From IMG/VR virus record IMGVR_UViG_3300025769_000714, positions 1 through 26,253 of that record: a stretch of DNA of 26,253 nucleotides; one strand, 5' to 3'. The notes under the pieces are model-generated. The model did not search any database, was not told the origin of the DNA, and was given only the letters and a program-made list of their open reading frames with translations. The position numbers and the translations under genes are program-made. Positions 4,638 through 9,601 of this stretch are shown here, piece after piece; the first letter of the stretch is position 1, and each line of letters starts with the position of its first letter. The stretch is from a virus.

Positions 4638-5037
4638 TATATTAATTCTTTTTCTGGTTAGCTGTTCACCTCAAAAAAGGATGAATAAGTTAATTAAAAA
4701 ATTCCCTCATTTAACTCAATTAGATACTTTAATAGTTAAAGATACTATTGTAATTGAAAGTTATAATTATGATACTATAACTTCATTTAAGTATTCAGAT
4801 ACAACTATTATAGTAAATACTGAAAAAGTATTAGCAAGGTATTTTTATGATACTTTAAGGCAAGAGATATGGCACGAAATAGAGTGCAAAGAAGATACTG
4901 TTTATTATGAAAAATTAATTCCAATTGAAAAAGTCATATATAAGGAACTATCGTTTTGGGAAAAATACCAAACTCTAATTTACATACTAATAGCTCTGTT
5001 TGTTCTATTGGTTCTTTACAAGAAACTTACTAAGTAA
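4618..5037 (+). CDS. Unimolecular spanin (u-spanin) candidate lipoprotein
   Basis: 139 residues from TTG 4618, a start chosen because it supplies a complete lipoprotein signal: basic N-terminus, hydrophobic core ILILF, lipobox L13-V14-S15-C16. The middle is a beta-rich periplasmic segment with repeated DT/YDT motifs. The C-terminus has one membrane helix (about 118-134) and a basic end KKLTK. A lipobox at one end and a TM at the other is the architecture of T1 gp11, the u-spanin that spans the periplasm and fuses outer and inner membranes in the last lysis step; T1 gp11 is of similar length. It overlaps the holin candidate by 20 nt and is the last gene before a terminator. Sequence similarity to known spanins is not claimed. 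Confidence 0.65.
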   Translation: MRFLKSSILILFLVSCSPQKRMNKLIKKFPHLTQLDTLIVKDTIVIESYNYDTITSFKYSDTTIIVNTEKVLARYFYDTLRQEIWHEIECKEDTVYYEKLIPIEKVIYKELSFWEKYQTLIYILIALFVLLVLYKKLTK

Positions 5038-5043
5038 TTCTCT

Positions 5044-5073
5044 ATTAACATTTCTTTGTTAATTATTTTTTTT
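5044..5073 (+). terminator. Rho-independent terminator of the late/lysis operon
   Basis: ATTAACA (5044-5050) and TGTTAAT (5057-5063) form a 7-bp stem with a 6-nt loop, followed after TA by T8 at 5066-5073. It lies 7 nt after the spanin stop and before the early promoter candidate. The stem is AU-rich and so weak, but the U tract and position support the call. Confidence 0.7.
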
Positions 5074-5079
5074 ATGTGT

Positions 5080-5113
5080 TTTGTAATTCGTATTGTATTT
5101 ATATATATATTTA
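5080..5113 (+). promoter_or_regulatory. Candidate early promoter (Bacteroidota type)
   Basis: TTTG at 5080-5083 and TATATTTA at 5106-5113, 22 nt apart, approximate the Bacteroidota pattern TTTG-N19/21-TAnnTTTG; the last base deviates and the spacing is at the long end. It stands between a terminator and the first early gene (ATG 5145). In such AT-rich DNA single matches occur by chance, so the location carries much of the weight. Confidence 0.45.
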
Positions 5114-5144
5114 CATAAACATTTAAAAATTAAAAAATACAACT

Positions 5145-5390
5145 ATGACTAACACAAACACGATTAATAATTTTTCTGCTTATATTTTAACAGTAAAATA
5201 CAATAAAGATTATTTTAAAAAATCTAATGAACCTTTAACTAAAAAATTAAAATATGTTTCAAGTGATGATAGAACATTACAACAAATTCAAAGAAACTAT
5301 CCTAATTGTAAGGTTTTAAATTCAGAAAAAATACAAACTTCAAAAAATACAACTATTTTAGATTTTATGAAGAACTATAAAATATCTTAA
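5145..5390 (+). CDS. Early hypothetical protein, 81 aa
   Basis: First gene after the terminator and promoter candidate. It is a small basic protein (MTNTNTINNFSAYILTVKY...) rich in Lys and Asn, with no membrane segment or recognised domain. The start sits in the context TACAACTATG, repeated exactly at the next gene. A hairpin terminator follows its stop within 6 nt, so it seems to form a monocistronic unit that may be expressed strongly and early. Phage early genes of this size often act on host proteins, but nothing in the sequence shows that here. Confidence 0.6.
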   Translation: MTNTNTINNFSAYILTVKYNKDYFKKSNEPLTKKLKYVSSDDRTLQQIQRNYPNCKVLNSEKIQTSKNTTILDFMKNYKIS

Positions 5391-5395
5391 TTAAC

Positions 5396-5422
5396 AAGGG
5401 TGTATAATAGCACCCTTTTTTT
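5396..5422 (+). terminator. Rho-independent terminator or attenuator
   Basis: AAGGGTG (5396-5402) pairs with CACCCTT (5411-5417) around an 8-nt loop, and the T run 5416-5422 follows. This is the most GC-rich hairpin in the window. It ends the first early gene; since the next ATG is only 10 nt further, it may let part of the transcription through and thus set a steep expression step. Confidence 0.75.
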
Positions 5423-5431
5423 ATTACAACT

Positions 5432-5656
5432 ATGAAAGAAATACAAAACATTATAGAGCAAGTAGAGCAAAGTAAAATTAGTGATAATGCAATTCTTTTA
5501 TCTAAATCTATAAACAAGGAAATAATTAATATAGATGAATCATTGTCATATAAAGATTTAGCAATTGCAGTAAGTATAATTTTAAAAGATTCATACGGCA
5601 AACATAATTTTAACCCATTTATAAAAGAACTTAAAAATCATTTAAATATCGTATAA
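5432..5656 (+). CDS. Early hypothetical protein, 74 aa
   Basis: Helical acidic protein starting MKEIQNIIEQVEQSK; no recognised family. It starts in the same TACAACTATG context as the previous gene and 10 nt after the T run of the hairpin terminator. The second half (LSYKDLAIAVSIILKDSYGKHNFNPFIKEL) is predicted helical. No function can be assigned. Confidence 0.55.
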   Translation: MKEIQNIIEQVEQSKISDNAILLSKSINKEIINIDESLSYKDLAIAVSIILKDSYGKHNFNPFIKELKNHLNIV

Positions 5657-5659
5657 CTT

Positions 5660-5749
5660 ATGAAAAAAGAAATTTATAAAACCATATTGTTAGTAGCTGC
5701 AATTTACACAAGTTACAGAATCGTAATTTATTTAATAATTAATATTTAA
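5660..5749 (+). CDS. Single-span membrane microprotein, 29 aa
   Basis: ATG 5660 opens 29 codons to TAA 5747-5749. After a basic start (MKKEIYK) almost all remaining residues are hydrophobic (TILLVAAIYTSY...IVIYLIINI). It follows the previous stop by 3 nt and precedes the next ATG by 3 nt, which supports translation. Four such microproteins of 28-31 residues occur in this window. Function unknown. Confidence 0.4.
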   Translation: MKKEIYKTILLVAAIYTSYRIVIYLIINI

Positions 5750-5752
5750 AAC

Positions 5753-5968
5753 ATGGCATTTAAAGAAAATATAGAATTTAATTCATTAACTCCTGAAGAT
5801 GTTTTTATTGTATCCATAGAAGTTAAAAATTTATTAAACAAGATTTTAAATGGTGGTTTATCTTCTGTTGCTTTTGTTAGAGAGAATGAAGAAGGTAATA
5901 TAGAAATTAAACCAGCAACGCACAGAGATAAAAAATTATTATTAGAAATATTTAATTCAAACAAATAA
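5753..5968 (+). CDS. Early hypothetical protein, 71 aa
   Basis: Starts MAFKENIEFNSLTPEDVFIVSIEVKNLL and ends IFNSNK. Mixed alpha/beta pattern, soluble, with no recognised motif. It lies in a tight run of small early genes with 3-11 nt gaps. No function assigned. Confidence 0.55.
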   Translation: MAFKENIEFNSLTPEDVFIVSIEVKNLLNKILNGGLSSVAFVRENEEGNIEIKPATHRDKKLLLEIFNSNK

Positions 5969-5979
5969 AAAATATAAAC

Positions 5980-6177
5980 ATGGCACAAAATAAACCAATA
6001 GGAGTTAAAACATTTTATGTTAAAAATGAAGATAGAGAATTAGTACAAGAATTTGTTGATATACATTTAGCAAAACAGAAACAAGCAAAAGAAGAGGGAA
6101 GAGAGTGGAGAAAATACAGCTATTCTTCTACTTTAGTTGAATTTATGAAAGCATATGTTAAACGCAATAAATCTTAG
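5980..6177 (+). CDS. Small early protein, possible ribbon-helix-helix type (65 aa)
   Basis: The protein opens with a probable strand (GVKTFYVKNED), then a helix (LVQEFVDIHLAKQKQAKEEG), then YSYSSTLVEFMKAYVKRNKS. A strand followed by two helices could fit a ribbon-helix-helix DNA-binding fold, but the insert between helices is long and no consensus residues are clear. It is flanked by small early genes with gaps of 11 and 2 nt. Confidence 0.55.
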   Translation: MAQNKPIGVKTFYVKNEDRELVQEFVDIHLAKQKQAKEEGREWRKYSYSSTLVEFMKAYVKRNKS

Positions 6178-6893: not shown

Positions 6894-7067
6894 ATGGGAA
6901 AAAGCATATATAAGAACTACCTAAACAAAGCTTTATCTAATTTAGATAACACTTTAGAAGAAATAGAAGAAACTGTTCATAAGGGAAAATATGAGCACAT
7001 GGAAAAAGCAGTAAAATATAAAGTAATTTTAGAAGTATTAAGTGAATATTATAAAAAGTCAAAATAA
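6894..7067 (+). CDS. Small helical protein, 57 aa
   Basis: ATG 6894 to TAA 7065-7067, whose last A begins the next gene's ATG (TAATG). The protein is charged and helical (MGKSIYKNYLNKALSNLDN...EYYKKSK), with no recognised motif. It is wedged between the annealing-protein candidate and the Gp157-like gene. Confidence 0.5.
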   Translation: MGKSIYKNYLNKALSNLDNTLEEIEETVHKGKYEHMEKAVKYKVILEVLSEYYKKSK

Positions 7068-8399: not shown

Positions 8400-8867
8400 A
8401 TGGCTTGGAGTGATAAGATAGAAGTTAAAAAAGGAGATATAGGAGAAAAGATAATTCAAGAATATCTTGAACAAAAAGGCTGGGTAATTTATAAACCAGT
8501 AACAAAGAAAGCTCATTGGTTTGATAACATGGCAACAAGAAACAAAAAAAATATTATTGCTTTTGATGTTAAAACTAAGGCAAGATTAAATAAAATAGCT
8601 GCTACTGGAATTGAAAAAAAACACTACTTAGATTATAAAAGATTTGCTTCTAATACTCAAATACCTTTTTACTTATATTTTGTAGATGATAAAGAAGGTA
8701 AGGTATATTGTAGGTTATTAAAAGATTTACCTGAACCATTTGAGCTTAACAGCACAACTGTTTGTTGGTATCTTGAAGATTTAAAATATATCTTTTCATT
8801 AACTGAAGATCAAAAAAATAATCTTTCTAAATTTGATAATAGAAGTTATAAATTTAATCCAGTATAA
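8400..8867 (+). CDS. PD-(D/E)XK-fold nuclease-like protein
   Basis: 155 residues. KGDIGEKIIQEYLEQKGW (about 11-28, with E16) is the usual first helix; FDN (D42) and the strand IIAFDVKTKAR (D56, K58) match the metal-binding D...(D/E)xK core. The tail IYKPV...HYLDYKRFASNTQIPFYLYFVDDKEGKVYCRLL resembles phage resolvase/endonuclease-like proteins that check nucleic acid joints or ends. The second acidic residue is Asp instead of the commoner Glu, which is allowed. Next to the SSB gene it probably works in recombination or host DNA breakdown. Confidence 0.65.
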   Translation: MAWSDKIEVKKGDIGEKIIQEYLEQKGWVIYKPVTKKAHWFDNMATRNKKNIIAFDVKTKARLNKIAATGIEKKHYLDYKRFASNTQIPFYLYFVDDKEGKVYCRLLKDLPEPFELNSTTVCWYLEDLKYIFSLTEDQKNNLSKFDNRSYKFNPV

Positions 8868-8872
8868 ATTAT

Positions 8873-8880
8873 TATATTTG
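8873..8880 (+). promoter_or_regulatory. TATATTTG -7 element in front of the structured RNA
   Basis: TATATTTG is a full match to the Bacteroidota -7 consensus TAnnTTTG. A start site about 4 nt downstream would fall at base 8884, exactly the first base of the RNA structure below. No clear TTTG lies at -33; the nearest is TTTA at 8853-8856 with a short 16-nt spacer. Chance of such an octamer in a 100-nt AT-rich gap is several percent. Confidence 0.45.
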
Positions 8881-8883
8881 TAC

Positions 8884-8954
8884 TGAGGTTGTGCCGATCA
8901 TCACGTAAAAGGTTTTTTGACTTCCTTTTCCTCATTCTTTTTTTTAAGTCAAAA
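8884..8954 (+). ncRNA. Candidate small structured RNA or leader with terminator-like U8
   Basis: In this intergenic stretch three helices nest into a three-way junction: P1 TGAGG 8884-8888 with CCTCA 8930-8934, P2 TGTG 8890-8893 with CACG 8902-8905 (one wobble), and P3 AAAAGG 8907-8912 with CCTTTT 8924-8929. Only single bases (8889, 8906) separate the helices. TTC and T8 (8938-8945) follow. In addition, the P3 loop TTTTGACTT 8915-8923 is perfectly complementary to AAGTCAAAA 8946-8954 just past the T run, giving an H-type pseudoknot or a competing 9-bp hairpin. It could be a ~62-nt sRNA, or a leader attenuator for the replication genes starting at 8972. No known RNA family was recognised. Confidence 0.45.
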
Positions 8955-8971
8955 CATAAAAAAGTTAAATT

Positions 8972-9601
8972 ATGCAACAAGGTTGGATAAAAATCCATAG
9001 GCAATTATTAGAGTGGGAATGGTATGATGATTTAAACGTTAAGGTTTTATTTTTTCATCTACTGCTAAAAGCAAATCATAAGCCTAAAAAATACAAAGGT
9101 AAATTAATTGAAATAGGTCAGCTTATTACTGGCTTAGAAGTTCTTTCTAATGAAACTGGTTTAAGTATTCAAAAAATAAGAACTGCAATTTCTAAGTTAA
9201 AATCAACAAACGAAATAACAATTAAAACAAGCTCTAAAGGTACTGTTATTCAGATAGTTAACTATACTAAATATCAAATAGCAACAAACGAACTAACAAA
9301 CCATCAACAAACGAGCAACAAACCATCAACAACTAACAAGAATGTAAAGAATGTAAAGAATGATATTAAGCAGCGTAAAGCAGAGTTTAAGAAACTCTTA
9401 GCAAAGCATAAAGATGTTTATGTTTTAGAAATGATTAAAGATTTTTATGAATACTGGACTGAGCATAGCCCAAACGATAAAAAACTTAGATTTGAAAAGC
9501 AAACAAGTTTTGATGTAAACAGAAGATTAAAAACATGGTTAAAGAATTCTAAACAAACTTACACTTCTAAAAACTATAAACCACCTACTTATGGCAACTA
9601 A
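8972..9601 (+). CDS. Phage replication initiator/replisome organiser, winged-helix (DnaD-like)
   Basis: 209 residues. The N-terminus MQQGWIKIHRQLLEWEWYDD and the segment LIEIGQLITGLEVLSNETGLSIQKIRTAISKLKSTNEI (about 50-88) are typical of phage replisome organisers with a winged helix. A Thr/Asn/Gln-rich linker (about 104-130) is coded by DNA repeats described separately. The C-terminal part KDFYEYWTEHSP...LRFEKQTSFDVNRRLKTWL (about 160-192) is DnaD-like. Such proteins bind the origin and load the helicase. The following gene, overlapping by 11 nt, encodes a helicase-type ATPase, which supports this role. Confidence 0.75.
   Translation: MQQGWIKIHRQLLEWEWYDDLNVKVLFFHLLLKANHKPKKYKGKLIEIGQLITGLEVLSNETGLSIQKIRTAISKLKSTNEITIKTSSKGTVIQIVNYTKYQIATNELTNHQQTSNKPSTTNKNVKNVKNDIKQRKAEFKKLLAKHKDVYVLEMIKDFYEYWTEHSPNDKKLRFEKQTSFDVNRRLKTWLKNSKQTYTSKNYKPPTYGN
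9280..9362 (+). repeat. Iteron-like direct repeats inside the initiator gene: candidate replication origin
   Basis: Direct repeats cluster in the linker-coding part of the initiator: AGCAACAAAC at 9280-9289 and 9314-9323; AACAAACCATCAACAA at 9295-9310 and 9317-9332 (16 identical bases, period 22); AACTAACAA at 9291-9299 and 9331-9339; and tandem AATGTAAAG at 9341-9349 and 9350-9358. Period 22 is not a multiple of three, so the two 16-bp copies are read in different frames (TNHQQ against NKPSTT); protein selection does not explain them. Lambda places its origin iterons in the same spot, the linker of gene O. Confidence 0.5.

Follow-up and report, generated by a model that had tools for sequence, protein, structure and literature searches.

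The window, by which we mean the whole stretch of DNA that was analyzed (26,253 bases), is a virus contig whose portal, terminase, and tail genes identify it as a tailed phage. The region studied here is a gap between two genes, in which no open reading frame of at least 60 aa is found on either strand. The product of the upstream gene has no Pfam or PHROG match; a protein resembling it is carried at the equivalent position by L011, one of the homologous contigs described below. The downstream gene is followed by a primase/helicase-like gene (phrog_239), and a Gam-like protein, a DUF3127 or single-stranded-DNA-binding-type protein, a resolvase, and a DNA methylase are also encoded near the gap. 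The host of the phage is probably a member of the Bacteroidota, given the type of the promoter −7 box, a Cellulophaga phage protein that is a relative of the helicase loader, and the DUF3127 protein. Positions 5001 to 6000 of the window have a G+C content of 21%, compared with 26 to 33% elsewhere in the window, and contain small open reading frames. The features of the gap and its flanks are as follows.

8400-8867: orphan gene, 155 aa, directly 5′ of the gap
8868-8971: the studied gap, 104 nt, between the orphan gene and the 209-aa gene
8873-8880, plus strand: promoter −7 box TATATTTG, of the Bacteroidota type TAnnTTTG (read from the sequence; consensus and placement from PMC6847099)
8884-8888, plus strand: P1 5′ strand TGAGG
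8890-8893, plus strand: P2 5′ strand UGUG, with core GUG at 8891-8893 and a U-G outer pair
8894-8901, plus strand: P2 loop CCGAUCAU, with the strongly conserved consensus CYGNNCAA; candidate recognition element
8902-8905, plus strand: P2 3′ strand CACG, pairing with 8890-8893
8907-8912, plus strand: P3 5′ strand AAAAGG; GUAAAAGG is invariant
8915-8923, plus strand: pseudoknot 5′ strand TTTTGACTT, in the P3 loop and adjoining the P3 3′ strand
8924-8929, plus strand: P3 3′ strand CCTTTT, pairing with AAAAGG
8930-8934, plus strand: P1 3′ strand CCTCA, pairing with TGAGG
8938-8945, plus strand: U8 tract, within a U-rich linker of 9 to 14 nt; the long U run is not conserved
8946-8954, plus strand: pseudoknot 3′ strand, copy 1, AAGTCAAAA; a perfect 9-bp complement of TTTTGACTT
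8962-8969, plus strand: copy 2, AAGTTAAA; a second partner of the P3 loop, with one G-U pair, ending 2 nt before the start codon
8972-9601, plus strand: downstream gene, 209 aa, DnaD-like helicase loader or replication initiator (phrog_2514, E 5e-28); the inferred regulated gene

Helices P1, P2, and P3, the run of eight T residues, and the 9-bp loop complement had been described in an earlier note on this DNA, and all are in place. When positions 8881 to 8945 were folded alone, RNAfold returned exactly the P1/P2/P3 three-way junction that the note had proposed, at −8.2 kcal/mol. This energy is no better than that of shuffled sequences (z, −0.23), so a single sequence would not prove the fold; the homologues do.

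Homologues were gathered in two ways. Eighty viral loci were collected via the loader protein, and several of their upstream regions bore the same element with altered sequence; the remaining homologues were recovered by scanning the viral collection with DNA patterns, blind to genes. In total, 14 distinct sequences were obtained (the window, L003, L004, L011, L032, L070, L083, L084, L087, L090, L095, L099, L101, and L103). The family numbers about 15 members in nine independent pseudoknot-sequence groups, all on metagenomic contigs, several of them short.

The paired segments of the 14 sequences were aligned by hand. In this alignment, in which the choice of segments by best match favors structure, 96.3% of pair cells formed standard pairs, compared with 76.0% after shuffling. 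Cells changed on both sides numbered 66, compared with 18.4 in shuffles, and the covariation score was 0.594 against 0.165, with none of 500 shuffles scoring as high. Sliding the partners by 1 to 3 columns as a control lowered the paired cells to 45 to 57%. The pairing between the loop and copy 1 had double changes in all seven aligned pairs and 94.9% of cells paired, which confirms the loop complement that had been noted at 8915-8923 and 8946-8954. The loop strand lies directly against P3, with a 0-nt gap, in 13 of the 14 members. Double changes were found in four of the six aligned P1 pairs and in one of the three P2 pairs, where GUG/CAC in the window corresponds to GAG/CUC elsewhere, a single compensatory change. 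The other homologues could also form GUUG/CAAC as P2; this alternative was rejected because the helix is disrupted in the window, where the changes are instead compensatory for GUG/CAC. P3 is nearly invariant, and its support is therefore conservation rather than covariation. To remove the bias of best-match selection, the same search was run on swapped loops in permutation tests, one of them restricted to nine independent representatives. Among these, copy 1 paired with its own loop at −9.4 kcal/mol, compared with −1.8 kcal/mol for other loops, and none of 20,000 permutations did as well. The element is an H-type pseudoknot RNA with a three-way junction. The covariation comparison that had been suggested as a check thus came out in favor of the earlier note, in that homologous regions do show compensatory changes.

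Nine other members were used to build a covariance model, which gave the left-out window 53.8 bits (E 3e-14) and the other left-out members 51 to 68 bits, with one strong match per phage record. Among the first 100 loci no score fell between 18 and 51 bits, and among a further 100 loci none exceeded 12.2 bits. Neither relaxed descriptors nor two additional relaxed scans of the viral collection yielded a new member, indicating that the family is sharply bounded. BLAST of the window or the consensus against phage records gave only short chance matches. A genome-contig scan with one pattern and a covariance search of 395 genomes from one phylum turned up no cellular or prophage copy; the matches in cellular genomes were chance hits of 21 to 28 bits in unrelated sequence. 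No Rfam 15 family reached its gathering score on the window, the best chance hit having an E value of 0.18. In line with the earlier remark that no known family has this arrangement, the RNA family is absent from Rfam and uncatalogued.

We next consider the position of the element. In 13 of the 14 homologues, exactly 4 nt separate the −7 box from the GAGG of P1. In Flavobacterium johnsoniae the −7 element spans −12 to −5 (PMC6847099); placing the G of the box at −5, as in that organism, predicts +1 at 8885, the foot of P1. The true start may lie one or two bases earlier, as suggested by the covariation of the outer P1 bases. The phasing supports the claim that TATATTTG at 8873-8880 sets a start at P1, with +1 predicted at about 8885. 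Furthermore, every member recovered by the gene-blind scans, in viral contigs that are diverse, lies 5′ of a replication initiator- or helicase loader-like gene, so that the position before replication genes, previously noted for the window, holds for all homologues. The element lies 81 to 94 nt before the ATG across members. With this spacing, replication-type genes downstream, and fixed promoter phasing, the element is a cis-regulatory leader of one gene class. The initiators themselves are mosaic: under an unchanged leader RNA, the phages combine N- and C-terminal domains differently (L032, L070, L083, L084, L090, L095, L099, L101, and L103), and L084 and L090, for example, have a common C-terminus and different N-termini.

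Similar initiator genes are also preceded by other leaders. A second, unrelated family (L147, L154, L171, L178, L195, L200, L209, L216, L229, L262, L265, and L282) has a small hairpin at its 5′ end. The 8-mer in the loop of this hairpin (GGTCTCAC, CATCCTAC, CCTTCGAC, AGTCTCAA, CGTCTGAC, GGGTTCAA, and others) has a perfect pairing partner about 53 nt further on, in the loop of a terminator-like hairpin that carries T6-8. The family's AAAGGAATTATT-like linker is conserved and covariation is strong by eye; a gathering-level Rfam scan of L147, L216, L229, and L262 gave no match. A third family, with the pattern GTTGGTAGGACAATC...TCCTACC...GAAAGCGTTACACTTTTTTTT, was seen in L244, L251, L257, L277, and L284, and L244 and L251 had no match in an Rfam scan.

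The earlier note missed a second complement of the same loop, at 8962-8969, just 5′ of the ATG at 8972. This copy 2 reads AAGTTAAA in the window, AATCGT in L070, AGTAAC in L084 and L087, TGTGAATAA in L083, and AAATACAG in L099. Its cells were paired in 90.8% of cases, compared with 53.4% after shuffling, and its summed pairing score of 206 exceeded the maximum of 192 among 20,000 permutations. For the nine representatives, copy 2 paired with its own loop at −6.4 kcal/mol and with other loops at −1.5 kcal/mol (0 of 20,000 permutations). Copy 2 usually lies 6 to 7 nt 3′ of copy 1, and its pairing ends no more than about 4 nt from the ATG. Like the copy 1 pairing, it adjoins P3 (in 13 of the 14 members). 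Copy 1 is usually the stronger partner (−7.7 versus −5.3 kcal/mol in the window), and the copy 2 pairing is weakest in L101 and L032, at 4 to 6 bp. G-U pairs occur in the copy 2 pairing of the window and its close relatives; RNA would tolerate these, and a DNA site would not.

The loop strand at 8915-8923 shares no base with P1 to P3, and neither pairing excludes the junction. The competition once proposed, between a terminator and a read-through form, is therefore not borne out: loop pairing is compatible with P1 to P3 and completes the pseudoknot. What the sequences point to instead is that the two downstream partners, copies 1 and 2, compete for a single loop. AAGTCAAAA also occurs 5′ of the gene at 7067, inside the end of a coding frame; action of the loop on other phage genes was rejected as an explanation, as this site is coding and other contigs have no general pattern. 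In the leaders of L143 (CCGACCAA) and L224 (ACACCAC), the sequence before the ATG duplicates a stretch with which the leader starts, and the complement lies between the two, so that the logic of one strand with two partners recurs in another RNA.

On balance, we lean toward reading the element, which belongs to phages that probably infect Bacteroidota, as a cis-acting 5′ leader RNA in which the loop would alternate between copy 1 and copy 2 and so switch translation. The leader RNA would begin at the transcription start. It folds into the P1/P2/P3 three-way junction, and, as covariation shows, the P3 loop forms the H-type pseudoknot by pairing with copy 1, after P1 and the U-rich linker, and can pair with copy 2 instead. 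In the copy 1 state, the start region would be single stranded and the initiator would be made; with copy 1 displaced, the loop could take copy 2 and initiation would be blocked. That copy 1 is the on-state partner and copy 2 the off-state partner is our guess. In Flavobacterium, initiation proceeds without Shine-Dalgarno pairing and is tuned by structure in the start region (PMC6847099), so pairing of copy 2 would be expected to have an effect. A ligand or protein that tips the balance would probably dock on the conserved junction bases, GGUUGNGCYGNNCANCNYGUAAAAGG. Because the RNA core is constant while the initiator domains change, the signal is probably a host factor or a small molecule and probably not the initiator itself. 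Counting against the switch, neither pairing excludes P1 to P3, and hence the sequence by itself names no driver of the exchange.

Other explanations differ in what the loop and its partners would do. A chance structure in an AT-rich gap would fit the shuffle-level folding energy, but it is refuted by the homologues, through covariation and the covariance-model results, and we give it practically no weight. Almost as little credence attaches to a DNA-level reading, in which the loop and its two complements would be an operator or origin iterons for the initiator. Two direct copies and one inverted copy of a 6- to 9-bp word do lie beside the initiator gene; however, the word does not track the protein, as the window and L070 are alike in the N-terminus and differ in the word, whereas L070 and L090 have the same word and different N-termini. 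Elsewhere in the contigs the words give scattered matches only and are not iterated. The inverted copy is always in the P3 loop, P1 and P2 covary as RNA, and copy 2 forms G-U pairs; the iteron reading was therefore rejected. In an attenuator, the P1/P3 stack and the U tract would stop most transcripts near 8945, and the freed P3 loop of the resulting short RNA would pair in trans with copy 1 or copy 2 of read-through mRNA, damping the initiator by self-antisense feedback. Both copies do lie 3′ of the U tract, and other leaders of the same gene type have clear terminators. The longest U run is 8 in the window, L003, L087, and L099; 7 in L084 and L101; 6 in L070 and L090; 5 in L004 and L095; 4 in L083; and 3 in L011, L032, and L103. 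It thus reaches at least 5 in 10 of the 14 members and is at most 4 in the other 4, so that a U-rich linker is conserved and a terminator-grade run is not. What P1 encloses is a junction and not a simple hairpin, the eight U residues of the window follow a junction helix with 3 nt between stem and tract, and the distance to copy 1 is short and varies fairly little, as pairing in cis would predict. The stable hairpin with a U run directly after it, as in an intrinsic (Rho-independent) terminator, is not conserved across the 14 members, and we regard the attenuator as unlikely. Since several homologues have an interrupted U tract, the self-terminating RNA of about 62 nt that had been proposed is unsupported as a conserved form.

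Two further explanations concern what would bind the RNA. A phage or host RNA-binding protein, such as a ribosomal protein or a phage replication protein, might bind the pseudoknot and repress. T4 gp32 represses by binding its own mRNA pseudoknot, and this precedent, together with the strongly conserved unpaired core, is consistent with a protein-responsive leader. The N- and C-terminal domains of the downstream protein vary while the core is constant, which makes binding by the initiator itself unlikely; we hold the protein-responsive reading as a whole to be rather improbable. More tentatively still than the translational switch as such, the element may be a ligand-sensing phage riboswitch, a possible if doubtful reading in which a compact aptamer would read a host metabolite or state and move the loop between the tandem copies, gating the initiator. 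In that case, phages of these hosts would have evolved several leader-RNA families at this one location, unrelated to each other, with this element among them.

Phages that probably infect Bacteroidota are abundant, but little work has addressed how they control their genes, and the hosts initiate translation without Shine-Dalgarno pairing. A two-partner leader that always stands before the initiator suggests an RNA-level gate on commitment to phage DNA replication. The alternating-partner pseudoknot yields a sharp, testable prediction, and the conserved core invites a search for a ligand or protein.

Among known structured RNAs, the uncharacterized Rfam candidate motifs of Bacteroidota (such as Bacteroidales-1 and Flavo-1) and of phages (manA and wcaG) come from the same hosts or from phages (PMC2864571), and none matches the window. 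The SAM-II riboswitch is likewise a leader with a small H-type pseudoknot that acts on the start region, and its metZ form releases a terminated sRNA (PMC9373788). SAM-II, however, is not known to have the P1/P2 junction and has another consensus, and in this comparison the window had no Rfam match even at an E value of 10. The autoregulatory pseudoknot of T4 gene 32 is also a 5′ pseudoknot leader of a phage replication gene; there the gene's own product binds, whereas in the window element the product domains vary and the RNA core is constant. A further likeness in layout is to the pseudoknot control of repZ of plasmid ColIb-P9 (IncI-alpha) and repA of IncL/M and IncB plasmids, the subject of titles cited in PMC10724649. 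These genes also have a leader RNA before a replication initiator. An upstream stem-loop there pairs just before the start region in a translation switch, the pseudoknot activates, and the switch is set by an antisense RNA and a leader peptide. Compared with these plasmid leaders, as so described, the window element has two tandem partner copies and a conserved three-way junction and belongs to a phage.
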